DNA from: Streptococcus mitis
GTDB lineage: Bacteria; Bacillota; Bacilli; Lactobacillales; Streptococcaceae
Direction: 5' to 3'
Assembly: GCF_000722765.2 (NCBI RefSeq)
Contig: NZ_CP028415.1
Span: forward strand, 440,501-504,500
DNA length: 64,000 bases
This document shows positions 49,956 to 60,808 of this stretch, in pieces. The translations under genes were made by a program, and so were the position numbers. Each line of letters begins with the position of its first letter. Position 1 is the stretch's first letter. The notes below the pieces were generated by a model. The model searched no databases. It had not been told where the DNA came from and worked only from the letters and a program-made list of their open reading frames with translations.

Positions 49956-50000
49956 AGCCCCTTTTCCCTTTGCACACTTGTGTAAGAAAAGGGGGCTTTT
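49956..50000 (+). terminator. intercistronic hairpin after the binding-protein gene
   Basis: AGCCCCTTTT (49956-49965) pairs with AAAAGGGGGCT (49987-49997), then TTT. Probably lets more binding protein than permease be made. Confidence 0.78.
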
Positions 50001-50071
50001 ATTTAAAAGGTAAATCATCATTCTCTTAGGAGATTATCAATAAAAAAGAAAAGGAAAGAGAGGTGCCTACA

Positions 50072-50959
50072 GTGAAAGTTAATAAAATTCGTATGAGAGA
50101 AACTATTATTTCTTATGCTTTCCTAGCGCCAGTTTTATTCTTCTTCATTGTCTTCGTTTTAGTACCAATGATTATGGGATTCATCACAAGTTTCTTTAAC
50201 TACTCTATGACTAGTTTTGAATTTGTGGGCTTAGATAACTATATCCGTATGTTTAAAGATCCTGTCTTTACAAAATCTCTGATTAACACAGTTATTTTGG
50301 TTGTTGGATCTGTACCGATTGTTGTTCTCTTTTCGCTCTTTGTGGCGTCGCAAACCTACCATCAAAATGCTATTGCCAGATCCTTCTACCGTTTTGTCTT
50401 TTTCCTTCCTGTCGTAACAGGTAGTGTTGCCGTAACGGTTGTATGGAAATGGATTTATGACCCACTATCAGGTATCTTGAACTTTGTGCTTAAATCAAGT
50501 CATATTATTACTCAAAATATTTCATGGCTGGGAGACAAACACTGGGCATTGCTGGCAATTATGATTATCCTCTTGACAACTTCAGTTGGTCAACCAATCA
50601 TCCTTTATATAGCTGCTATGGGGAATATTGACAATTCACTGGTTGAAGCGGCTCGTGTAGACGGTGCAACTGAATTTCAAGTTTTCTGGAAGATTAAATG
50701 GCCAAGCCTTCTTCCAACAACTCTTTATATCGCAATCATCACAACAATCAACTCATTCCAAGTTTTCGCCTTGATTCAGCTTTTGACATCTGGTGGGCCA
50801 AACTACTCAACAAGTACCTTGATGTACTACCTGTACGAAAAAGCCTTCCAATTGACAGAATATGGTTATGCCAACACAATTGGTGTCTTCTTGGCAGTCA
50901 TGATTGCTATCGTAAGCTTTGTTCAATTTAAAGCACTCGGAAACGACGTAGAATACTAA
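50072..50959 (+). CDS. sugar ABC transporter permease 1
   Basis: 295 residues from the GTG at 50072 (MKVNKIRMRETI), preceded by AAGGAAAGAGAGG; a GTG three codons earlier would sit too close to that RBS. Six helices, EAA loop EAARVDGATEFQVFWKIKWPSL (about 203-225). MalF/UgpA-type partner of the following permease. Confidence 0.92.
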   Translation: MKVNKIRMRETIISYAFLAPVLFFFIVFVLVPMIMGFITSFFNYSMTSFEFVGLDNYIRMFKDPVFTKSLINTVILVVGSVPIVVLFSLFVASQTYHQNAIARSFYRFVFFLPVVTGSVAVTVVWKWIYDPLSGILNFVLKSSHIITQNISWLGDKHWALLAIMIILLTTSVGQPIILYIAAMGNIDNSLVEAARVDGATEFQVFWKIKWPSLLPTTLYIAIITTINSFQVFALIQLLTSGGPNYSTSTLMYYLYEKAFQLTEYGYANTIGVFLAVMIAIVSFVQFKALGNDVEY

Positions 50960-50974
50960 AGAAAGGAGACAGCT

Positions 50975-51814
50975 ATGCAATCTACAGAAAAAAAACCATT
51001 AACAGCCTTTACTGTTATTTCAACAATCATTTTGCTCTTGTTGACTGTGCTGTTCATCTTTCCATTCTACTGGATTTTGACAGGGGCATTCAAATCACAA
51101 CCTGATACAATCGTTATTCCTCCTCAGTGGTTCCCTAAAATGCCAACCATGGAAAACTTCCAACAGCTCATGGTACAAAACCCTGCTATGCAATGGATGT
51201 GGAACTCAGTATTTATCTCATTGGTAACTATGTTCTTAGTCTGTGCGACTTCATCTCTAGCAGGTTATGTATTGGCTAAAAAACGTTTCTATGGTCAACG
51301 CATTCTATTTGCTATCTTTATCGCTGCTATGGCGCTTCCAAAACAAGTTGTCCTTGTACCATTGGTACGTATCGTCAACTTCATGGGAATTCATGACACT
51401 CTTTGGGCAGTTATCTTGCCTTTGATTGGATGGCCGTTTGGTGTCTTCCTCATGAAACAATTCAGTGAAAATATCCCTACAGAGTTGCTTGAATCAGCTA
51501 AAATTGATGGTTGTGGTGAGATTCGTACCTTCTGGAGCGTAGCCTTCCCGATTGTGAAACCAGGATTTGCAGCCCTTGCAATCTTCACCTTCATCAATAC
51601 CTGGAACGACTACTTCATGCAGTTGGTTATGTTGACTTCACGTCAAAACTTGACCATCTCACTTGGGGTTGCGACCATGCAGGCCGAAATGGCAACCAAC
51701 TATGGTTTGATTATGGCAGGTGCAGCTCTTGCAGCCGTGCCAATCGTAACAGTCTTCTTAGTCTTCCAAAAATCCTTCACACAAGGTATTACTATGGGAG
51801 CGGTCAAAGGTTAA
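50975..51814 (+). CDS. sugar ABC transporter permease 2
   Basis: 279 residues, MalG/UgpE-type: six helices, EAA loop ESAKIDGCGEIRTFWSVAFPIV (about 172-193). RBS AAAGGAGACAGCT. No ATPase gene lies in the cluster, so the transporter must use a shared ATPase such as MsmK elsewhere, as known for pneumococcal sialic acid transporters. Confidence 0.93.
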   Translation: MQSTEKKPLTAFTVISTIILLLLTVLFIFPFYWILTGAFKSQPDTIVIPPQWFPKMPTMENFQQLMVQNPAMQWMWNSVFISLVTMFLVCATSSLAGYVLAKKRFYGQRILFAIFIAAMALPKQVVLVPLVRIVNFMGIHDTLWAVILPLIGWPFGVFLMKQFSENIPTELLESAKIDGCGEIRTFWSVAFPIVKPGFAALAIFTFINTWNDYFMQLVMLTSRQNLTISLGVATMQAEMATNYGLIMAGAALAAVPIVTVFLVFQKSFTQGITMGAVKG

Positions 51815-51827
51815 GAAAAGTAAACTA

Positions 51828-51959
51828 GTGTGTCAAGATTGCGGAAGTGGTCTTGGCATGCTATGGAAATATAGATGTTATAAGTGTCTACAAAATGTTG
51901 GGTATTTGCTTACCTTAGAGATTTTGTCAGACACTTATAAACTTAATTTACGATTTTAG
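51828..51959 (+). CDS. possible 43-aa zinc-ribbon peptide (uncertain)
   Basis: GTG start, 43 codons; CQDC and CYKC pairs 11 residues apart give a zinc-ribbon-like C-X2-C-X11-C-X2-C pattern. A weak AAGAAAAG sequence precedes it. The last third lies in a long hairpin (51878-51940), so either the RNA structure or the peptide, not necessarily both, is the selected feature. Confidence 0.3.
   Translation: MCQDCGSGLGMLWKYRCYKCLQNVGYLLTLEILSDTYKLNLRF
51878..51940. other. long inverted repeat between permease and YhcH-like gene
   Basis: TTATAAGTGTCT (51878-51889) with AGACACTTATAA (51929-51940), continued after a bulge by CAAAAT/ATTTTG; 24-base loop. No T run follows, so it is not a standard terminator; it may be an RNA-processing site or a small mobile-element remnant. 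Confidence 0.6.
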
Positions 51960-51986
51960 TTAACTATCAGAAACGAAGGAAACAGT

Positions 51987-52439
51987 ATGATTTTTGACGA
52001 TTTGAAAAATATTACCTTTTACAAAGGGATTCATCCCAATCTAGACAAGGCCATTGACTATCTCTACCAACACCGTAAAGATTCATTTGAACTAGGAAAG
52101 TATGAGATTGATGGAGATAAAGTCTTTCTAGTTGTTCAAGAAAATGTCCTCAATCAAGCTGAAAATGACCAGTTTGAACATCATAAGAACTATGCAGACT
52201 TGCATTTGCTGGTAGAAGGACATGAATATTCGAGTCACGGTTCACGTATCAAAGATGAAGCAGTAGCATTCGACGAAGCGAGTGACATTGGCTTTGTGCA
52301 TTGTCATGAACACTACCCACTCTTGTTGGGTTATCACAATTTTGCGATTTTCTTCCCAGGAGAACCACATCAGCCAAATGGCTACGCAGGGATGGAAAAG
52401 AAGGTTCGCAAATATCTCTTTAAAATTTTGATTGATTAA
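51987..52439 (+). CDS. YhcH/YjgK/YiaL family protein
   Basis: 150 residues. Cupin-like family with conserved Glu/His cluster: FELGKYEIDGDKVFLVVQE, FEHHKNYADLHLLVEGHE, and FFPGEPHQPNGY. Commonly encoded in sialic acid clusters, where it is thought to be a sugar anomerase. RBS GAAGGAAACAGT. Distance from the permease is 172 bases, containing the inverted repeat. Confidence 0.9.
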   Translation: MIFDDLKNITFYKGIHPNLDKAIDYLYQHRKDSFELGKYEIDGDKVFLVVQENVLNQAENDQFEHHKNYADLHLLVEGHEYSSHGSRIKDEAVAFDEASDIGFVHCHEHYPLLLGYHNFAIFFPGEPHQPNGYAGMEKKVRKYLFKILID

Positions 52440-52458
52440 AAAATCAGGAGGAGCAAAC

Positions 52459-53103
52459 ATGGCACAAAAAGGAGTAAGCCTTATCAAGGCAGCATTTGAT
52501 ACAGATAACTTTCTCATGCGTTTTAGTGAGAAGGTCTTGGATATCGTGACAGCCAATCTTCTTTTTGTCGTCTCTTGTTTGCCCATCGTGACGATTGGAG
52601 TGGCTAAAATTAGTCTCTACGAGACTATGTTTGAGATTAAGAAGAGCAGACGTGTGCCTGTCTTTAAAATCTATCTAAGAGCTTTCAAGCAAAATCTGAA
52701 GCTGGGTCTTCAGTTAGGTCTGCTTGAGTTGGGTATCATCTTATTAAGCCTTCTAGACCTCTATCTCTTCTGGGGGCAGACAGCTATGCCTTTCCAAATG
52801 GTAAAAGCTATTTGTCTAGGCGTTCTTATCTTCCTCACTATCGTGATGTTGGCTAGCTATCCCATAGCTGCGCGATATGATTTGACTTGGAAAGAAGTGC
52901 TACAAAAAGGACTTATCTTGGCAAGTTTTAACTTTCCTTGGTTCTTCCTCATGTTAGTTATTCTCTTTCTCATTGTGATGGTTCTTTATCTGTCCGCCTT
53001 CAGTTTACTTTTAGGTGGCTCAGCCTTCCTGCTTTTTGGGTTTGGGCTCTTGGTATTTCTCCAGACTGGATTGATGGAGAAAATTTTCGCAAAATACCAA
53101 TAG
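52459..53103 (+). CDS. DUF624 (YesL-like) membrane protein
   Basis: 214 residues from the ATG at 52459 (MAQKGVSLIKAAFD), RBS AGGAGGAGCAAAC; the frame upstream overlaps the YhcH-like gene. Five or so helices; YesL family start (FMRFSEKVLDIVTANLLFVVSCLPIVTIG). YesL-like proteins accompany sugar ABC transporters of this class, role unknown. Confidence 0.88.
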   Translation: MAQKGVSLIKAAFDTDNFLMRFSEKVLDIVTANLLFVVSCLPIVTIGVAKISLYETMFEIKKSRRVPVFKIYLRAFKQNLKLGLQLGLLELGIILLSLLDLYLFWGQTAMPFQMVKAICLGVLIFLTIVMLASYPIAARYDLTWKEVLQKGLILASFNFPWFFLMLVILFLIVMVLYLSAFSLLLGGSAFLLFGFGLLVFLQTGLMEKIFAKYQ

Positions 53104-53116
53104 GATGGCTTGTTTC

Positions 53117-53215
53117 TGAAACTACTTTCAAGCCATAAACATTTCAAAATTCATATCGAAACTAAAATCTAAGTATACACAAGATGTTGAAAGCGTTTTT
53201 TACAAGGTGTATACT
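53117..53215 (+). promoter_or_regulatory. lyase operon control region: NanR-like palindrome, cre and promoter
   Basis: TGAAACTACTTTCA (53117-53130), then TTGAAA (-35, 53187-53192), 17-base spacer, TATACT (-10, 53210-53215), with cre-like TGAAAGCGTTTTTT over the -35. Shares long stretches with 47661-47761, including GAAACTRAAATCTA. Confidence 0.75.
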
Positions 53216-53275
53216 AAACACGTAAAGAATAAATCCTGCTTTTAGCAGAAAAAAAGAAATCTTAGGAGAAAATCT

Positions 53276-54193
53276 ATGTCAGATTTAAAAAAATACGAAG
53301 GTGTCATTCCAGCCTTCTACGCATGTTATGATGATCAAGGAGAAGTAAGTCCAGAGCGTACGCGTGCCTTGGTTCAATACTTCATTGATAAAGGTGTTCA
53401 AGGTCTTTATGTCAATGGTTCTTCTGGTGAATGTATCTACCAAAGTGTTGAAGACCGCAAGTTAATCTTGGAAGAAGTCATGGCAGTTGCCAAAGGTAAG
53501 TTGACTATTATTGCCCATGTTGCTTGCAACAATACCAAGGATAGTATGGAACTGGCTCGCCACGCAGAAAGCTTGGGTGTAGATGCCATTGCAACAATTC
53601 CACCAATTTACTTCCGCTTGCCAGAATACTCAGTTGCCAAATACTGGAACGATATTAGTTCTGCAGCTCCAAATACAGACTACGTGATTTATAACATTCC
53701 TCAACTGGCAGGTGTTGCTTTGACTCCAAGCCTTTACACAGAAATGTTGAAAAATCCTCGTGTTATCGGTGTTAAGAACTCTTCTATGCCAGTCCAAGAT
53801 ATCCAAACCTTTGTCAGCCTTGGTGGGGAAGACCATATCGTCTTTAACGGTCCAGATGAACAGTTCCTAGGTGGCCGCCTTATGGGAGCAAAAGCTGGTA
53901 TCGGTGGTACTTATGGTGCGATGCCAGAACTCTTCTTGAAACTCAATCAGTTGATTGCGGGTAAAGACTTGGAAACAGCGCGTGAATTGCAATATGCTAT
54001 CAATGCAATCATTGGTAAATTGACTGCTGCACATGGAAATATGTACGGTGTGATTAAGGAAGTCTTGAAGATCAATGAAGGCTTGAACATTGGTTCTGTT
54101 CGTTCACCATTGACACCCGTGACTGAAGAAGATCGCCCAGTTGTAGAAGCAGCTGCAGCCTTGATTCGCGAAACTAAGGAGCGCTTCCTCTAA
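53276..54193 (+). CDS. npl: N-acetylneuraminate lyase (DapA/NanA family)
   Basis: 305 residues. TIM-barrel aldolase: GSSGECIYQS (sugar-binding GSSGE), YVIYNIPQLAG (catalytic Tyr in YNIP) and VIGVKNSS (Schiff-base Lys). Splits sialic acid to pyruvate and ManNAc. First gene of the lyase-kinase unit behind a NanR/cre-type promoter. RBS TTAGGAGAAAATCT. Confidence 0.95.
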   Translation: MSDLKKYEGVIPAFYACYDDQGEVSPERTRALVQYFIDKGVQGLYVNGSSGECIYQSVEDRKLILEEVMAVAKGKLTIIAHVACNNTKDSMELARHAESLGVDAIATIPPIYFRLPEYSVAKYWNDISSAAPNTDYVIYNIPQLAGVALTPSLYTEMLKNPRVIGVKNSSMPVQDIQTFVSLGGEDHIVFNGPDEQFLGGRLMGAKAGIGGTYGAMPELFLKLNQLIAGKDLETARELQYAINAIIGKLTAAHGNMYGVIKEVLKINEGLNIGSVRSPLTPVTEEDRPVVEAAAALIRETKERFL

Positions 54194-54210
54194 TCTATAA
54201 GGAGGTATTT

Positions 54211-55095
54211 ATGACACACTACGTTGCAATTGATATCGGTGGAACCAATATCAAATATGGTTTGATTGACCAAGAAGGCCAACTTGTTGAATCGCATGAA
54301 ATGCCAACAGAGGCGCATAAAGGTGGACCTCATATCTTACAAAAGACCAAAGATATCGTAGCCAGCTATTTAGAAAAAGGTCCAGTAGCAGGTGTTGCTA
54401 TTTCTTCTGCAGGGATGGTAGATCCTGACAAGGGTGAAATTTTCTATGCTGGGCCTCAGATTCCTAATTATGCAGGCACCCAATTCAAGAAGGAAATCGA
54501 GACTAGCTTTGCGATTCCTTGTGAAATTGAAAATGATGTCAACTGTGCAGGTCTTGCTGAAGCGGTATCTGGTTCAGGTAAGGGAGCGAGTGTCACCCTT
54601 TGCCTGACTATTGGAACCGGTATCGGTGGTTGTTTGATTATGGATGGGAAAGTCTTCCATGGATTTAGCAATTCAGCCTGTGAAGTGGGTTATATGCATA
54701 TGCAGGATGGAGCGTTCCAAGATTTGGCTTCTACAACAGCTTTAGTGAAATATGTAGCTGAAGCACATGGAGAAGATGTTGATCAGTGGAATGGCCGACG
54801 CATCTTTAAGGAAGCCACTGAAGGAAACAAAATCTGTATGGCTGGTATTGACCGCATGGTAGATTACCTTGGGAAAGGTCTGGCTAATATTTGCTATGTG
54901 GTCAATCCAGAAGTAGTCATTCTCGGTGGCGGTATCATGGGACAAGAGGCTATCCTCAAACCCAAGATCCGTACAGCTTTGAAAGATGCCTTGGTGCCAA
55001 GCCTAGCTGAAAAAACACGATTAGAATTCGCCCATCATCAAAATACAGCAGGTATGTTGGGTGCTTATTATCATTTTAAAACAAAACAATCCTAG
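54211..55095 (+). CDS. nanK: ROK family kinase, N-acetylmannosamine kinase
   Basis: 294 residues. ROK signature: DIGGTNIKYGLID (phosphate 1) and EIENDVNCAGLAEAVSG, GTGIGGCLIMDGKVFHG; the zinc site region SACEVGYMHM lacks the usual CXCGXXGC Cys cluster. Phosphorylates ManNAc before NanE. RBS AAGGAGGTATTT, 17 bases after the lyase. Its TAG stop lies in the arm of the terminator at 55088-55122. Confidence 0.92.
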   Translation: MTHYVAIDIGGTNIKYGLIDQEGQLVESHEMPTEAHKGGPHILQKTKDIVASYLEKGPVAGVAISSAGMVDPDKGEIFYAGPQIPNYAGTQFKKEIETSFAIPCEIENDVNCAGLAEAVSGSGKGASVTLCLTIGTGIGGCLIMDGKVFHGFSNSACEVGYMHMQDGAFQDLASTTALVKYVAEAHGEDVDQWNGRRIFKEATEGNKICMAGIDRMVDYLGKGLANICYVVNPEVVILGGGIMGQEAILKPKIRTALKDALVPSLAEKTRLEFAHHQNTAGMLGAYYHFKTKQS

Positions 55096-55122
55096 TTTGG
55101 TTTAACCAAACTAGGATTTTCT
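55088..55122 (+). repeat. terminator/direct repeat copy 1 flanking the TA module
   Basis: ATCCTAGTTTGG and CCAAACTAGGAT form the hairpin (CCTAGTTTGG stem, loop TTTAA). Almost identical to 55858-55892; both start at a TCCTAG stop codon context. Confidence 0.88.
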
Positions 55123-55134
55123 AATCAAGTTCCC

Positions 55135-55162
55135 TTGACTTTCTTTATAATTATGATACAAT
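55135..55162 (+). promoter_or_regulatory. promoter of the toxin-antitoxin pair
   Basis: TTGACT (55135-55140), 16-base spacer, TACAAT (55157-55162). Confidence 0.65.
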
Positions 55163-55191
55163 AAATAAAATACATAAAGGAATTATATAAA

Positions 55192-55479
55192 ATGGCTATA
55201 GCAAATTCAAGTAAAGTTGTGACCTTCCAAGCTAATAGAGAATTAGTAAATGATGCCATGGAAGTGTTAAAAGAAAAAAATCTCTCTCTTTCATCGGCAC
55301 TTAGATTATTTTTAAAGAATGTTGCCGTAACAAATGAAGTAGATTTACTTAGTGAAGAGGAATTGGAGAAGGAGTATTTATTTAGACAATTACAAGCAGA
55401 AGTTCAAGAAAGTTATGCTAAGATTGAGGCTGGGAATTACTTGACAGATGAGGATGTTGTGACACGCTATGGATTATAA
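55192..55479 (+). CDS. relB: RelB/DinJ-family antitoxin
   Basis: 95 residues. N-terminal ribbon-helix-helix (VVTFQANRELVNDAMEVLKEKNLSLSSALRLFLKNV, about residues 8-43) for dimerisation and autorepression, acidic C-terminus (LLSEEELEKEYLF, residues 51-63) that would bind and block the toxin. RBS AAAGGAATTATAT. Overlaps the toxin gene by 11 bases. Confidence 0.9.
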   Translation: MAIANSSKVVTFQANRELVNDAMEVLKEKNLSLSSALRLFLKNVAVTNEVDLLSEEELEKEYLFRQLQAEVQESYAKIEAGNYLTDEDVVTRYGL

Positions 55480-55819
55480 AAAATATAGGATTTTGTATTC
55501 TCCTAGAGTGATTGATAGTTTGGATAAAATATATCAGTATATAGCAGAGGAAATCGGTTCTGTAGAGTCTGCGAGACGAAAAGTGGCGAGTATCAGAAAA
55601 GATATTAATCGTCTAGAAATTTTCCCCCAAGCTGGATTTGATGCCGATGAAAAATTTGGTAAGAAATTAGACCCTCGCTACCAAACGCGAGGATTGGCCT
55701 TGAGTAAGGATTATATTGTATTATATACAATTGTTGAGGATACCGTCAGACTTGCTTATTTACTTCCTTCAAAAAGTGATTACATGAAATTATTCAAGAC
55801 TAAGTCGAGATATGACTAA
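55469..55819 (+). CDS. relE: RelE/ParE-family toxin
   Basis: 116 residues. ParE/RelE fold: YSPRVIDSLDKIYQYIAEEIGS N-terminal helices, FPQAGFDADEKFG, then the conserved strand region RGLALSKDYIVLYTIVEDTVRLAYLLPSKSDY. RelE types cleave mRNA at the ribosome; ParE types poison gyrase; sequence by eye does not decide. The pair is inserted between nanK and nanR inside a duplicated terminator. Confidence 0.9.
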   Translation: MDYKKYRILYSPRVIDSLDKIYQYIAEEIGSVESARRKVASIRKDINRLEIFPQAGFDADEKFGKKLDPRYQTRGLALSKDYIVLYTIVEDTVRLAYLLPSKSDYMKLFKTKSRYD

Positions 55820-55857
55820 TTCATAATCTAGAAGATGTATGTTTAGTGATGAATAAA

Positions 55858-55892
55858 AATCCTAGTTTGGCTCAGCCAAACTAGGATTTTCT
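55858..55892. repeat. terminator/direct repeat copy 2 flanking the TA module
   Basis: CCTAGTTTGG, loop CTCAG, CCAAACTAGG; 35-base repeat of 55088-55122 with three loop changes. On the minus strand the hairpin begins in the TAG stop of nanR; on the plus strand it ends the toxin transcript. Confidence 0.88.
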
Positions 55893-56732
55893 TACACGTT
55901 TTTGTCTACGATAGCCATTGAGTTTCTTATTTTCCCAATAGCTATTAAAGATTTTCTCCTTGCTTTCACGATTGATTTCCAAAAAATAGGCATAAATCAA
56001 ATCGATAAAGAAGAGCATAGGAAGTTGAGCAGATATACGTTGAATGTAGGAAGGCTGACTGTGGCTAGCAACAAGAACGGTTTCTGTATAGGTCTGACTA
56101 TCTTTATTGGGAACACTTGTAAAGAGTACAGTCTTTGCCCCCATCTCCTTAGCGTCTAATAGACTATCTAAAATAGAAGGTGTTGTGCCAGAAAGTGAGA
56201 AACCGAGTACGAGACAATTTTCATCCATAATACTGGTTGTCCAAGCAAAGCCGTCTTGATCAGTCAAGGCCTCGCAGACCACACCTAGACGCATAAAGCG
56301 CAATTTCATTTCACGAGCGACAAGGCCAGAACTACCTGTTCCAAAGAAGTAGACACGATCAGCATCTTCGATTAACTGGGCGATTCGTTCAAGTTGTTTT
56401 TCGTCAATCAAGTCCTGTGTTTGTTCCCGCATGTGATTGTAGCTTCTAAGAACTCGTTTTGTCAGGGGGCTGTGGTCGGGATGTTGGCTAGCTTGATTAT
56501 CTGCTTGGTGTTGGTATTGGAAAATAAATTCTCGATAACCTGTAAAACCACACTTTTTAGCAAAGCGGGTCAGTGCGGCTTGAGAGATATGTAATTTTTG
56601 AGTGACCTGCTGAGAAGATAAATCATCCTCGATTGTCTCAGTTTGCAAAAAATAGCGAGCAATTTCTTGCTCTAGGTCTGTCATTTCTTCGAAGTGGGAA
56701 TCAATGAGGGTTGTTATATCTGGTTTGTCCAT
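55881..56732 (-). CDS. nanR: RpiR/MurR family regulator of sialic acid genes
   Basis: 283 residues. N-terminal HTH_6 (about 1-75; QVTQKLHISQAALTRFAKKCGF) and SIS sugar-isomerase effector domain (about 120-240; VYFFGTGSSGLVAREM, GFSLSGTTPSILDSL). The pneumococcal homologue at this place is NanR, which responds to ManNAc-6-P and controls the nan promoters. Candidate sites TGAAA-N4-TTTCA lie at 47663 and 53117. Convergent with nanK apart from the TA insertion. RBS AAAGGAGCCTTCC. Confidence 0.93.
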   Translation of the reverse strand: MDKPDITTLIDSHFEEMTDLEQEIARYFLQTETIEDDLSSQQVTQKLHISQAALTRFAKKCGFTGYREFIFQYQHQADNQASQHPDHSPLTKRVLRSYNHMREQTQDLIDEKQLERIAQLIEDADRVYFFGTGSSGLVAREMKLRFMRLGVVCEALTDQDGFAWTTSIMDENCLVLGFSLSGTTPSILDSLLDAKEMGAKTVLFTSVPNKDSQTYTETVLVASHSQPSYIQRISAQLPMLFFIDLIYAYFLEINRESKEKIFNSYWENKKLNGYRRQKRVRKS

Positions 56733-56939
56733 AGGGAAGGCTCCTTTAAATGAGTCGTATTGGAAAAAGACCGGGTCATCGAACTTTTACATTCATTATA
56801 TCATATAATATAGAGATAGATAAATAAAATCGTATTTTCCCGTAAAAAGGGAAAAAAGCTTTTTCCTTTTCCATAATTTTCTTCTCAAATTGTGGTACAA
56901 TGAAGAGTAAGATTTTAAATAGAAATGAGACTGATTTGT

Positions 56940-58982
56940 ATGAGAAAATTTGATAGCCATTCGATTCCGATTCGGCTTAATTTATTGTTTTTAATTGTTA
57001 TTTTGCTTTTTATGGCTATTATTGGTCGCCTGCTTTATATGCAGGTTTTGAACAAGGATTTTTATGAGACAAAATTAGCATCGGCTAGTAAAACAAAGGT
57101 GACCACTAGTTCGGCTCGGGGAGAAATTTATGATGCCAGCGGCAAGCCCTTAGTTGAAAATACTGTGAAACAAGTTGTTTCCTTTACTCGAAACAACAAA
57201 ATGACGGCTGCAGATTTAAAAGAAACAGCTAAGAAGTTGTTGGCTTATGTGGGAGTTTCTTCTCCAACATTGACTGACCGACAGTTGGCGGACTATTATC
57301 TAGCAGATCAAGATGTTTATAAGAAAGCAGTGGAAAGTTTACCAAGTGATAAGCGCCTTGATTCTGATGGCAATCAATTATCTGAATCCGAACTTTACAA
57401 TAATACTGTTGAAAGTATCGATCCAAGTCAATTGTCCTACTCGGATGACGAAAAGAAAGAAATTTATCTTTTTAGCCAACTCAATGCAGTTGAAAATTTT
57501 GCGACAGGAACCATTGCGACAGATTCCTTGACAGATACACAGATTGCATTAATTGCTTCGGCTTCTAAGAATTTACCTGGTATCAGTATTTCAACTTCAT
57601 GGGATCGAAAGGTTCTAGATACCTCACTTTCTTCTATAGTAGGTAGTGTATCTAGTGAAAAAGCTGGTCTTCCAGCTGAAGAAGCAGAGGCTTATATCAA
57701 AAAAGGTTATTCTCTAAACGACCGTGTTGGAACCTCTTATCTAGAAAAACAATATGAAGAAACCTTGCAAGGGAAACGCTCGGTGAAAGAAATCCATCTA
57801 GATAAGTACGGCAACATGGAAAGTGTCGAAAATATCGAAGATGGTACCAAAGGAAACAATATTAAACTGACTATTGATTTGTCCTTCCAAGATAGCGTGG
57901 ACAATCTGCTTAAGAGTTACTTCAATTCCGAGCTAGGAAATGGAGGGGCCAAGTATTCGGAAGGTGTGTATGCAGTTGCTCTAAACCCAAAAACAGGTGC
58001 GGTTTTGTCTATGTCAGGACTCAAACATGACTTGAAAACGGGAGATTTAACACCTGATTCCTTGGGAACAGTAACCGATGTCTTTGTCCCGGGTTCTGTT
58101 GTCAAGGCAGCGACCATCAGCTCAGGTTGGGAAAATGGAGTCTTGTCAGGGAACCAGACCTTGACAGACCAACCGATTGTCTTCCAAGGTTCAGCTCCGA
58201 TTAATTCTTGGTACACTCAGGCCTACGGTTCATTCCCGATTACAGCGGTGGAAGCCTTGGAGTATTCTTCTAATACCTATATGGTTCAAACGGCTTTGGG
58301 CATTATGGGTCAGACCTATCAACCCAATATGTTTGTTTTAACTAACAATTTAGAATCCGCTATGGGGAAACTTCGTTCGACATTTGCGGAATATGGTCTT
58401 GGAGCCTCAACAGGCATTGACCTTCCAGATGAGTCAACTGGTTTTATACCAAAAGAGTATAATTTCGCTAATTACATTACCAATGCATTTGGTCAGTTTG
58501 ATAACTACACCCCACTGCAATTGGCCCAGTACGTTGGAACTATTGCCAACAACGGTGTTAGGATTGCACCTCACATTGTCGAGGGGATTTATGGAAACAA
58601 TGAACAAGGAGGCTTAGGGGACTTAATCCAATCTGTTGAAACCAAGGAAATGAATAAAATTAATATTTCTGAGTCTGATGTTTCCATCCTCCAACAAGGT
58701 TTTTATCAAGTTTCTCACGGAGGGAGTGCTTTGACAACCGGTCGTGCCTTTTCAAATGGAGCAGCAGTTTCCATTAGTGGTAAAACAGGTACTGCCGAAA
58801 GTTATGTTGAGGGTGGTCAAGAAGCTAACAATACCAATGCTGTGGCCTATGCACCATCAGATAATCCTCAAATCGCTGTAGCTGTTGTCTTCCCTCATAA
58901 CACCAACCTTACAAATGGTGTCGGACCTTCCATTGCGCGCGATATTATCAACCTCTATAACCAACATCATCCAATGAATTAG
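56940..58982 (+). CDS. pbp2b: penicillin-binding protein 2B
   Basis: 680 residues from the ATG at 56940 ([13 protein letters not shown]); the ATG 5 codons earlier (56925) is also possible, and neither has a good RBS. Class B transpeptidase of division and peripheral peptidoglycan synthesis. One membrane helix (about 15-38), dimerisation domain (about 50-300), transpeptidase motifs SVVK (active Ser), SSN in [10 protein letters not shown], and KTGT in [11 protein letters not shown]. The residue after SSN is Thr, the penicillin-susceptible form of pneumococcal position 446, so the commonest low-affinity change is absent. Promoter -10 TACAAT about 56896-56901. Confidence 0.96.
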
Positions 58983-58992
58983 AAAGGAACAT

Positions 58993-59589
58993 ATGCTTTA
59001 TCCAACACCTATTGCTAAGCTAATTGACAGTTATTCTAAGTTACCGGGTATCGGGATTAAGACGGCTACACGTCTGGCCTTTTATACGATTGGGATGTCT
59101 GATGACGATGTCAATGAATTTGCTAAAAATCTCCTTTCTGCTAAGAGAGAGCTGACCTACTGTTCCATCTGCGGTCGCCTGACTGATGACGATCCGTGCT
59201 CTATCTGTACCGATCCGACTCGTGACCAGACGACAATTTTGGTGTTAGAGGATAGTCGCGATGTGGCAGCCATGGAGAATATCCAAGAATACCATGGACT
59301 CTATCATGTTTTACATGGACTCATTTCTCCCATGAATGGTATCAGTCCAGATGATATCAATCTCAAGAGCCTCATGACTCGTCTGATGGATAGTGAAGTT
59401 TCAGAAGTGATTGTGGCGACCAATGCTACAGCAGATGGTGAAGCGACATCCATGTATCTTTCACGCTTGCTCAAGCCAGCTGGTATCAAGGTTACGCGTC
59501 TAGCACGAGGTCTAGCTGTGGGAGCGGACATTGAGTATGCGGATGAAGTTACACTCTTACGAGCCATTGAAAATCGGACAGAGTTGTAA
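58993..59589 (+). CDS. recR: recombination mediator RecR
   Basis: 198 residues. HhH motif ([15 protein letters not shown]), zinc finger [16 protein letters not shown] (about 57-72), Toprim domain ([16 protein letters not shown]), C-terminal [12 protein letters not shown]. Loads RecA with RecFO. RBS AGAAAGGAACAT; 10 bases after pbp2b, same operon. Confidence 0.97.
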
Positions 59590-59635
59590 GTGGAGACAAA
59601 TGAACACACTCCATTCATTTATTTAAAAAATCGAG

Positions 59636-59667
59636 GAGACCGACAGTTGTTTTATCGGTCTCTTTTT
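59636..59667 (+). terminator. terminator after recR
   Basis: GAGACCGA (59636-59643) with TCGGTCTC (59655-59662), then TTTTT. Confidence 0.88.
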
Positions 59668-59764
59668 AGATTTATTGAAGACCAGTATCAGGTTCAAGTT
59701 TCAAAAAAGAAGCAAATATGATATACTAAAGAATGAGTATTCTATTAGAATTGGAACAGATAAT

Positions 59765-60808
59765 ATGAAACAAACGATTATTCTTTTATACGGTGGACGT
59801 AGTGCAGAGCGTGAAGTCTCTGTCCTTTCAGCTGAAAGTGTCATGCGTGCGGTCAACTACGATCGTTTCACAGTCAAGACTTTCTTCATTAGCCAGTCAG
59901 GTGACTTTATCAAAACACAGGAATTTAGTCAGACCCCAGGTCAAGAAGACCGTCTCATGACAAATGAGACCATTGATTGGGATAAGCAAGTTGCACCAAG
60001 TGCTATCTACGAAGATGGTGCAGTAGTCTTCCCAGTCCTTCACGGTCCGATGGGAGAGGATGGCTCAGTTCAAGGATTCTTGGAAGTTTTGAAAATGCCT
60101 TACGTTGGTTGTAATATCTTGTCATCTAGTCTTGCTATGGATAAAATCACCACTAAGCGTGTCTTAGAATCTGTCGGGATTGCTCAAGTTCCTTATGTGG
60201 CCATTGTCGAAGGTGATGATGTGACTGCTAAAATTGCCGAAGTTGAAGAAAAATTGACTTATCCAGTCTTCACAAAACCATCAAACATGGGGTCAAGTGT
60301 CGGTATTTCTAAGTCTGAAAATCAAGAGGAACTTCGTCAAGCCTTGAAACTTGCCTTCCAATATGACAGCCGTGTCTTGGTAGAGCAAGGGGTAAATGCC
60401 CGTGAAATCGAGGTTGGTCTCTTGGGCAACTACGATGTCAAGAGCACGTTGCCAGGAGAAGTTGTCAAGGATGTTGCCTTCTATGACTACGATGCCAAGT
60501 ATATTGACAACAAGATTACCATGGATATCCCAGCTAAAATCAGTGATGATGTGGTAGCTGTCATGCGTCAGAATGCAGAAACAGCCTTCCGTGCCATTGG
60601 TGGCCTCGGTCTCTCTCGTTGCGATTTCTTCTATACAGACAAGGGAGAGATTTTCCTAAACGAGCTCAATACCATGCCAGGTTTCACCCAGTGGTCTATG
60701 TATCCACTACTTTGGGACAATATGGGAATCAGCTACCCAGACCTAATCGAGCATTTGGTTGATCTTGCTAAAGAAAGTTTTGACAAGCACGAAGCGCATT
60801 TGCTATAA
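59765..60808 (+). CDS. ddl: D-alanine--D-alanine ligase
   Basis: 347 residues from the ATG at 59765 ([15 protein letters not shown]); the extension to 59675 lies in the terminator and promoter. ATP-grasp enzyme: [11 protein letters not shown] (N-terminal), [26 protein letters not shown], the YDYDAKY loop with the Tyr typical of D-Ala ligases rather than D-Lac ones, and [10 protein letters not shown]. Makes D-Ala-D-Ala for MurF, encoded next. Weak RBS GGAACAG. Confidence 0.96.

Follow-up and report, generated by a model that had tools for sequence, protein, structure and literature searches.

Among the intergenic toxin-antitoxin (TA) islets described in Escherichia coli, ccdAB/ccdO157 occupies the folA-apaH interval and parE-3/yiaG-2 the nadR-attA interval, and the relA-mazG site carries mazEF or, in Salmonella, parDE (PMC7232551, PMC7167474). 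The empty folA-apaH site measures 77 bp (PMC7232551), and a review states, in the passages available, that these loci take various elements and that their mode of movement is not known (PMC7167474). In Streptococcus pneumoniae the relBE2Spn module is flanked by transcriptional terminators and lies, in strain R6, between vicX and restriction genes (PMC8071376), with gyrA, ldh and restriction genes nearby (PMC2890582); it is said to be present in all pneumococcal genomes analysed. Convergent gene pairs in pneumococcus harbour more repeats (RUP, BOX and SPRITE) and IS elements than expected (PMC3049150).

The locus described here lies in a 64,000-nucleotide stretch of Streptococcus mitis DNA (the window), in which a type II TA pair sits between the convergent genes nanK and nanR, two genes of sialic-acid use (Table 1). 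Like the E. coli islets, it is a type II TA that is polymorphic between two conserved genes, at a site that is short when empty and takes other elements too. It differs from them in that the neighbours are convergent and that their shared terminator stands on both sides of the TA, a duplication that the excerpts consulted do not describe for the E. coli loci. With relBE2Spn it has in common the RelE/ParE superfamily, a streptococcal host and terminators on the flanks; yet it occupies another locus, and the source passages do not present the terminators of relBE2Spn as a repeat. Insertion between convergent genes is a property that it shares with RUP, BOX, SPRITE and IS elements. Unlike those dispersed elements, it is found at one site only and encodes no transposase. 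A limited literature search, covering listings and passages, returned no description of a TA between nanK and nanR. TA islets between conserved genes are already known, and what appears distinct here, within the literature sampled, is the shared terminator kept on both sides. We regard the TA pair as a movable extra, and its insertion as one of a known kind that is well resolved here.

Table 1. Features of the nanK-nanR region, in window coordinates.
Feature	Position	Strand	Basis or remark
nanK-like ROK-family kinase	54211-55095	+	ORF; PF00480 ROK, E 1.1e-52; convergent neighbour
Left terminator copy	55085-55122 (hairpin 55088-55118)	both strands	repeat search and folding
770-bp insert unit	55123-55892 (equally 55088-55857, owing to the repeat)		missing from empty-site relatives
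Predicted TA promoter, TTGACT-16-TACAAT, TG before second hexamer	55135-55162	+	consensus scan only
RelB/ParD-type antitoxin, 95 aa	55192-55479	+	NF050811, 102.7 bits (cut-off 60)
RelE/ParE superfamily toxin, 116 aa	55469-55819	+	PF05016, 37.9 bits; ParE-like predicted fold
38-nt spacer, toxin stop to right hairpin	55820-55857	+	
Right terminator copy	55855-55892 (hairpin 55858-55888)	both strands	repeat search and folding
nanR-like RpiR/MurR-family regulator	55881-56732	-	ORF; PF01418 and PF01380; convergent neighbour

The nanK-like gene stands downstream of a nanA-like lyase of the DHDPS family (Pfam and NCBIfam matches). The names nanK and nanR are putative and follow from protein family and gene context; no NCBIfam equivalog cut-off was reached. 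The toxin gene overlaps the antitoxin gene by 11 nt, and the consensus scan that yielded the predicted promoter returned 16 sites in the region vs. 18.5 in shuffled sequences. The GC content of the insert is 0.324 vs. 0.433 in nanK, a value equally low in 69 of 1266 segments of that size. No integrase was found among the ORFs of the unit. Rfam gave no match at E<=1 across 54000-57000, and no tandem repeats were found in 50000-60000.

The module had earlier been termed RelBE-type. The toxin scored above the cut-off for both PF05016 (ParE_toxin, Pfam) and TIGR02385, and its NCBIfam label is RelE_StbE. An AlphaFold model of the toxin from 21 sequences reached a mean pLDDT of 84.3, and its best PDB matches were ParE toxins (8c24_B, TM by target 0.86; 6x0a_C, 0.84). 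Ranks 1-15 were taken by ParE-type or similarly titled TA complexes (ParDE, PaaA2-ParE2, PfiAT, PrpA-PrpT), and RelE, YoeB and YafQ toxins came lower than these, the archaeal RelE 1wmi at rank 21 (TM by target 0.62). By sequence, no PDB relative was detected for the toxin at 0.01 or for the antitoxin at 0.1. The fold together with the overlapping antitoxin gene places the pair among type II TA systems of the RelE/ParE superfamily, but in its predicted fold the toxin is ParE-like and not closer to RelE than to ParE, so that the RelE part of the name did not hold, the NCBIfam label notwithstanding. Judging from this model, the module would be better named a RelB/ParD antitoxin with a ParE-like toxin.

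Both neighbouring genes end within the flanking hairpins. The 3′ end of nanK reads CAA TCC TAG and that of nanR AAA TCC TAG, and the stop codon of nanK falls within the left hairpin and that of nanR within the right one, which agrees with the earlier observation that both genes end in TCCTAG inside the same hairpin sequence. The near-identical direct repeats reported by the earlier note are likewise present, but they are 38 nt long rather than 35 bp (34/38 identical, 89%; spacing 770 bp). Each repeat is itself a palindrome, so the ends of the unit also form an inverted repeat. The four transcripts (both copies, both strands) fold at -19.0, -19.9, -22.6 and -24.2 kcal/mol with z between -5.4 and -8.2, and in each case none of 200 shuffles folded equally well. 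A simple terminator scan called the left hairpin on the minus strand and did not call the right one; on some strands both hairpins are without a long T run. Full pairing is kept in 20 of 24 left copies and 19 of 27 right copies (window counted), and 14 of 16 single-copy hairpins have 14/14 Watson-Crick pairs; some copies in relatives carry one or two stem mismatches. The loop-closing pair alternates between C-G and T-A among relatives, and in S. peroris (G154) two stem pairs are altered on both sides with pairing preserved. The stem therefore looks maintained, and both copies are, by their folding and conservation, consistent with working terminators. Homogenisation of the two hairpins within a genome was considered and rejected: left and right loops of the same genome differ by 30 mismatches vs. 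30.3 in shuffles.

The exact hairpin pattern occurs in 69 of 284 Streptococcus genomes, in one or two copies each, and in 69/69 every copy in the genome lies at the nan locus; it is thus not a common terminator. All 16 genomes with two exact hairpins are TA carriers, 10 other carriers have one, and each of the 43 non-carriers with the pattern has a single copy (two copies in 16/26 vs. 0/43, Fisher p 2.8e-9). In the 26 carriers, a hairpin always lies between the TA and nanR, and in 23 another stands directly before the TA. These counts support an association of the second terminator with the TA.

To compare the site among relatives, nanK and the following 97 bp were used as query against the 284 genomes, one per species. 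A match was obtained in 230, with named nanK-bearing records including S. mitis, S. oralis, S. pseudopneumoniae, S. peroris, S. infantis and S. sanguinis, and the junction was read in 86. The TA was present in 26 of these, 16 were strictly empty, and 26 held another cargo without the TA (type C). Four more had a RUP-like insert only, located in the nanK end, and four a long gene between nanK and nanR (with an alpha-L-fucosidase domain in the one scanned); in the remaining 10, nanR was not found within the stretch fetched. At the empty site, of which S. peroris (L154) and Streptococcus sp. M334 (L166) give examples, the stop codons are 15 bp apart and there is a single hairpin. Removal of the 770-bp unit from the window left 151 joined bases that aligned without gaps to 15 of the 16 empty sites (132-146 identical of 149-151 aligned); the S. 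peroris site aligned with 6 gap letters and 126 identities, and all 16 alignments had 149-152 columns. The single bidirectional terminator that the earlier note had predicted on removal of this segment is therefore what natural empty sites contain, and the strains with one terminator and no TA that it proposed to look for exist in 16 of the 86 genomes read. With occupied and empty versions side by side in relatives, the locus qualifies as an intergenic TA islet. No close TA copy was found in the 16 empty-site genomes, nor in the 26 TA-less type C genomes.

The other inserts at this site show features of their own. Type C occupies the same site in the 26 genomes without the TA and in two with it (L034, L040, L038, L087 and others), and has common ends with a single gene swapped between them: the same methyltransferase in 25 of 28, and otherwise two different GNAT acetyltransferases and one alpha/beta hydrolase. 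A 64-bp hairpin at its left end is also found at other places, directly upstream of a gene resembling those of large serine recombinases (L216, L217, L218 and L220; also L215 and L219). The recombinase-like gene at L216 encodes 612 aa, stays under the NCBIfam cut-offs and resembles XisF and CcrB, and at L219 the hairpin lies near a methyltransferase homologue. These similarities suggest that type C cassettes might be remnants of a recombinase-borne element. In eight loci (L015, L029, L090, L068, L032, L036, L089 and L213) a RUP-like repeat replaces the last nanK residues, with the terminator hairpin behind it; the RUP-like assignment of these inserts is tentative. Inserts in two carriers (L211 in G091 and L212 in G108) hold ABC transporter-like genes, a two-component system and transposase-like pieces, named by eye from ORFs. 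The two inserts open with almost identical short sequences (TCTAGGTACGACGGGCAT), which may be where an intron or some other element ends. At gathering thresholds Rfam had no matches in loci L211, L212, L034, L087 and L001, and one match in part of L211 (E 0.69) was not above chance.

Close copies of the toxin (93-100% identity) were detected in 26 of 284 genomes, and in 26/26 nanR was the next gene downstream. The next best copies had at most 68% identity and lay at other places, and the four of them that were inspected had no near-identical terminators on both sides. Since all close copies are at one site, the TA is not an element visiting many terminators, and the idea of a general terminator-targeting element was not borne out. 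Nor does the unit behave as a transposon or MITE: it occupies one site and holds no ORF of at least 60 aa beside the TA pair. Carriage on plasmids or phages was rejected, as blastn of the TA against plasmid and phage collections gave no match at 1e-5. Among close toxin relatives, the two largest protein clusters comprise 1248 and 971 sequences, and a smaller one takes its name from S. pneumoniae records; judged from these clusters, the TA may be common in pneumococcus. One carrier (G101, L019) has an extra base near the relB/relE overlap; its toxin alignment begins at residue 4, the gap measures 786 rather than 785, and this toxin copy may have an altered start.

Divergence was compared over the 26 copies and the window (351 pairs, 8 of which gave no value for nanR). 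Median dS was 0.105 for relB and 0.108 for relE vs. 0.393 for nanK and 0.368 for nanR, about 3.5 times lower in the TA than in the neighbour genes, and dS of nanK was below that of relB in 1 of 351 pairs. Spearman correlations of TA distances were 0.09 (relB) and 0.24 with nanK, and 0.26 and 0.37 with nanR. In alignments of the window and the 16 of 26 carriers without extra inserts, third-position diversity is 0.20-0.29 in the 3′ half of nanK, drops to 0.04-0.11 within the TA genes and climbs back in nanR; the step is located at the hairpins and is sharper toward nanK. In 125 of 136 pairwise comparisons the TA unit showed greater likeness than either flank. Most of the TA tree lacks resolution, with 4 of 27 supports reaching 95.

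An Fst-like comparison of carriers with empty or RUP-like genomes, with G154 and G201 excluded from the TA-less group, gave -0.02 to 0.04 for nanK and 0.03 to 0.14 for nanR. In the last 24 nanK codons diversity was 0.236 within carriers and 0.208 within TA-less genomes. Permutation of labels equalled the observed value in 28 and 42 of 2000 runs at the two 3′ ends (weak linkage), in 2/2000 at the nanR 5′ end and in 783/2000 at the nanK 5′ end (no linkage). On these alignments, nanK alleles appear nearly unlinked to TA presence. Diversity in nanR was lower within carriers than within TA-less genomes, and type C nanR differed strongly from carrier nanR (third-position values of 0.16 to 0.61). Across the TA, nanK and nanR distances were uncorrelated (-0.04) in a small sample of 22 genomes; in similarly small samples the correlation was 0.17 to 0.59 for TA-less genomes, depending on the outgroups kept, and 0.20 to 0.26 for type C. 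Individual pairs with close TA copies differ in how far the likeness extends. G160 and G227 are identical far into both flanking genes; G102 and G167 are identical for 60 bp on each side, followed by identities of 0.88 on the left and of 0.97 and 0.88 on the right; G238 and G101 have TA copies 0.981 identical and the next 60 bp of nanK 0.80 identical.

The history that we consider likely is a single TA insertion at the shared terminator, followed by spread through homologous recombination at a hot spot that accepts other cargo. The insertion at a single shared bidirectional terminator, as the earlier note had it, is supported by the empty sites and by a second hairpin tied to the TA. According to this history, a 770-bp chromosomal type II TA islet would have entered the terminator which, in mitis-group streptococci without it, serves nanK and nanR jointly; having arrived once, it would, we infer, have passed between species by homologous recombination through nanK and nanR, with natural transformation as the likely route. 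If flanks were exchanged with TA-less strains up to the edge of the TA and no further, the TA would end up as an island of low diversity among reshuffled backgrounds. The two terminators would insulate nanK, the TA operon and nanR from each other, making the insertion tolerable. In the passages available of a study of experimental pneumococcal transformation, tracts average 2.3 kb, most length differences beside tracts kept the recipient state, and short alleles are favoured over insertions (PMC3375284); for the insertion to spread, some advantage would therefore be needed. Several observations count against this history. Tracts of 2.3 kb predict a low-diversity trough in the flanks, and there is none on the nanK side. 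Some close TA pairs, such as G238/G101, have no common flank. Some linkage, though weak, is present at the 3′ ends and at the nanR 5′ end, nanR shows the lower diversity within carriers and the type C difference given above, and TA and nanR distances correlate somewhat. The poor resolution of the TA tree and the set of one genome per species weigh on it too.

The missing nanK-side trough would be better explained by a terminator-bounded cassette. In this alternative the hairpin repeats themselves are the exchange sites, and a terminator-TA-terminator unit moves without an integrase by RecA recombination inside the 38-nt repeats. The sharp diversity step at the nanK-side hairpin, the near-unlinked nanK alleles, the TA units that are closer than both of their flanks, the G238/G101 pair with like TA copies and unlike nanK ends, and the different cargoes at one site all fit it. 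The two closest TA pairs (G160/G227 and G102/G167), however, have common flank beyond the hairpins, loops are not homogenised within a genome, some hairpin copies carry stem mismatches, and no pair of a carrier and a TA-less genome has identical flanks on both sides, so that we hold this exchange to be unlikely. The last point also bears on the precise excision by repeat recombination put forward in the earlier note: in a set with one genome per species, no such pair with near-identical two-sided flanks shows it, and replacement by a TA-less allele explains TA loss equally well; excision is thus not supported. Generalised, the same alternative would make the terminator hairpins of convergent genes integrase-free docking sites, where two-terminator units are gained, lost and swapped with the neighbours always insulated, a reading to which we assign a low probability; if true, competent streptococci would pass small TA modules and cargoes of a single gene to one another in this way. 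In a further alternative, the TA and both terminators were ancestral in the mitis group and the empty sites are independent deletions between the repeats. Such a deletion would yield exactly the empty site seen, but S. peroris and M334 are empty, TA dS lies far below that of the neighbours, and the 26 TA-less type C genomes are also without a close copy, which makes this very improbable. That the two hairpins arose independently, or that the TA imported a common streptococcal terminator, deserves almost no credence: no point in its favour was found, the exact hairpin is confined to the nan locus in the genomes that have it, and the four distant TA homologues are without near-identical terminators on both sides.

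How the terminator came to be doubled is a related question. The insertion may have duplicated the nanK end and terminator, or recombination at the border may have added an incoming terminator. A version of the latter, to which we give a small chance, holds that the left terminator was joined secondarily: the TA came in a larger insert beside nanR, and the nanK end with its terminator was added from a TA-less donor, one side being joined by homology and the other by short microhomology. In G091, G108 and G092 the left edge of the TA lies in a different context, without an adjacent left terminator; their three different left sequences meet the TA at a common edge, TTTCAAATCAAA, as secondary joining would have it. 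About 6.7 kb (G091) and 7.5 kb (G108) separate the nanK terminator from the TA. In G092 nanK is followed by just half a hairpin, and this genome branches off first in the rooted TA tree (support 73). The reference list of PMC3784515 includes homology-facilitated illegitimate recombination in pneumococcus. Yet the TA of G091 nests with that of the window (support 96) and their nanR ends are identical, so the left context of G091 may be secondary, and most deeper branches of the TA tree are poorly supported.

The spacer between toxin and right hairpin was considered as a record of a larger duplication. In many carriers it contains 14 nt that nearly match the 3′ end of nanK; in the window this likeness is weak. 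In 14 of the 15 carriers tested 0-37 of 1000 shuffles were as good, in G198 987 of 1000, and for the window spacer 386, 780 and 126 of 5000 against the last 60 nt, the last 150 nt and all of nanK; with G198 and the window weak, a nanK remnant is suggestive at most and was rejected as proof. In G100 (L010) the TA is followed on its right by the 3′ end of nanK, carrying a RUP-like insert, and by a hairpin loop that G095 and G099 also have. Judging from these matches, G100 is a recombinant with its crossover near a 14-nt near match.

With a single insertion spread by homologous recombination as the likely history, the nan locus is testable: within one species group it can be occupied, empty or mixed, its edges are defined, and diversity differs between the TA and its neighbours. 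Insertion between convergent genes could be neutral for the neighbours if their shared terminator is retained on both sides.
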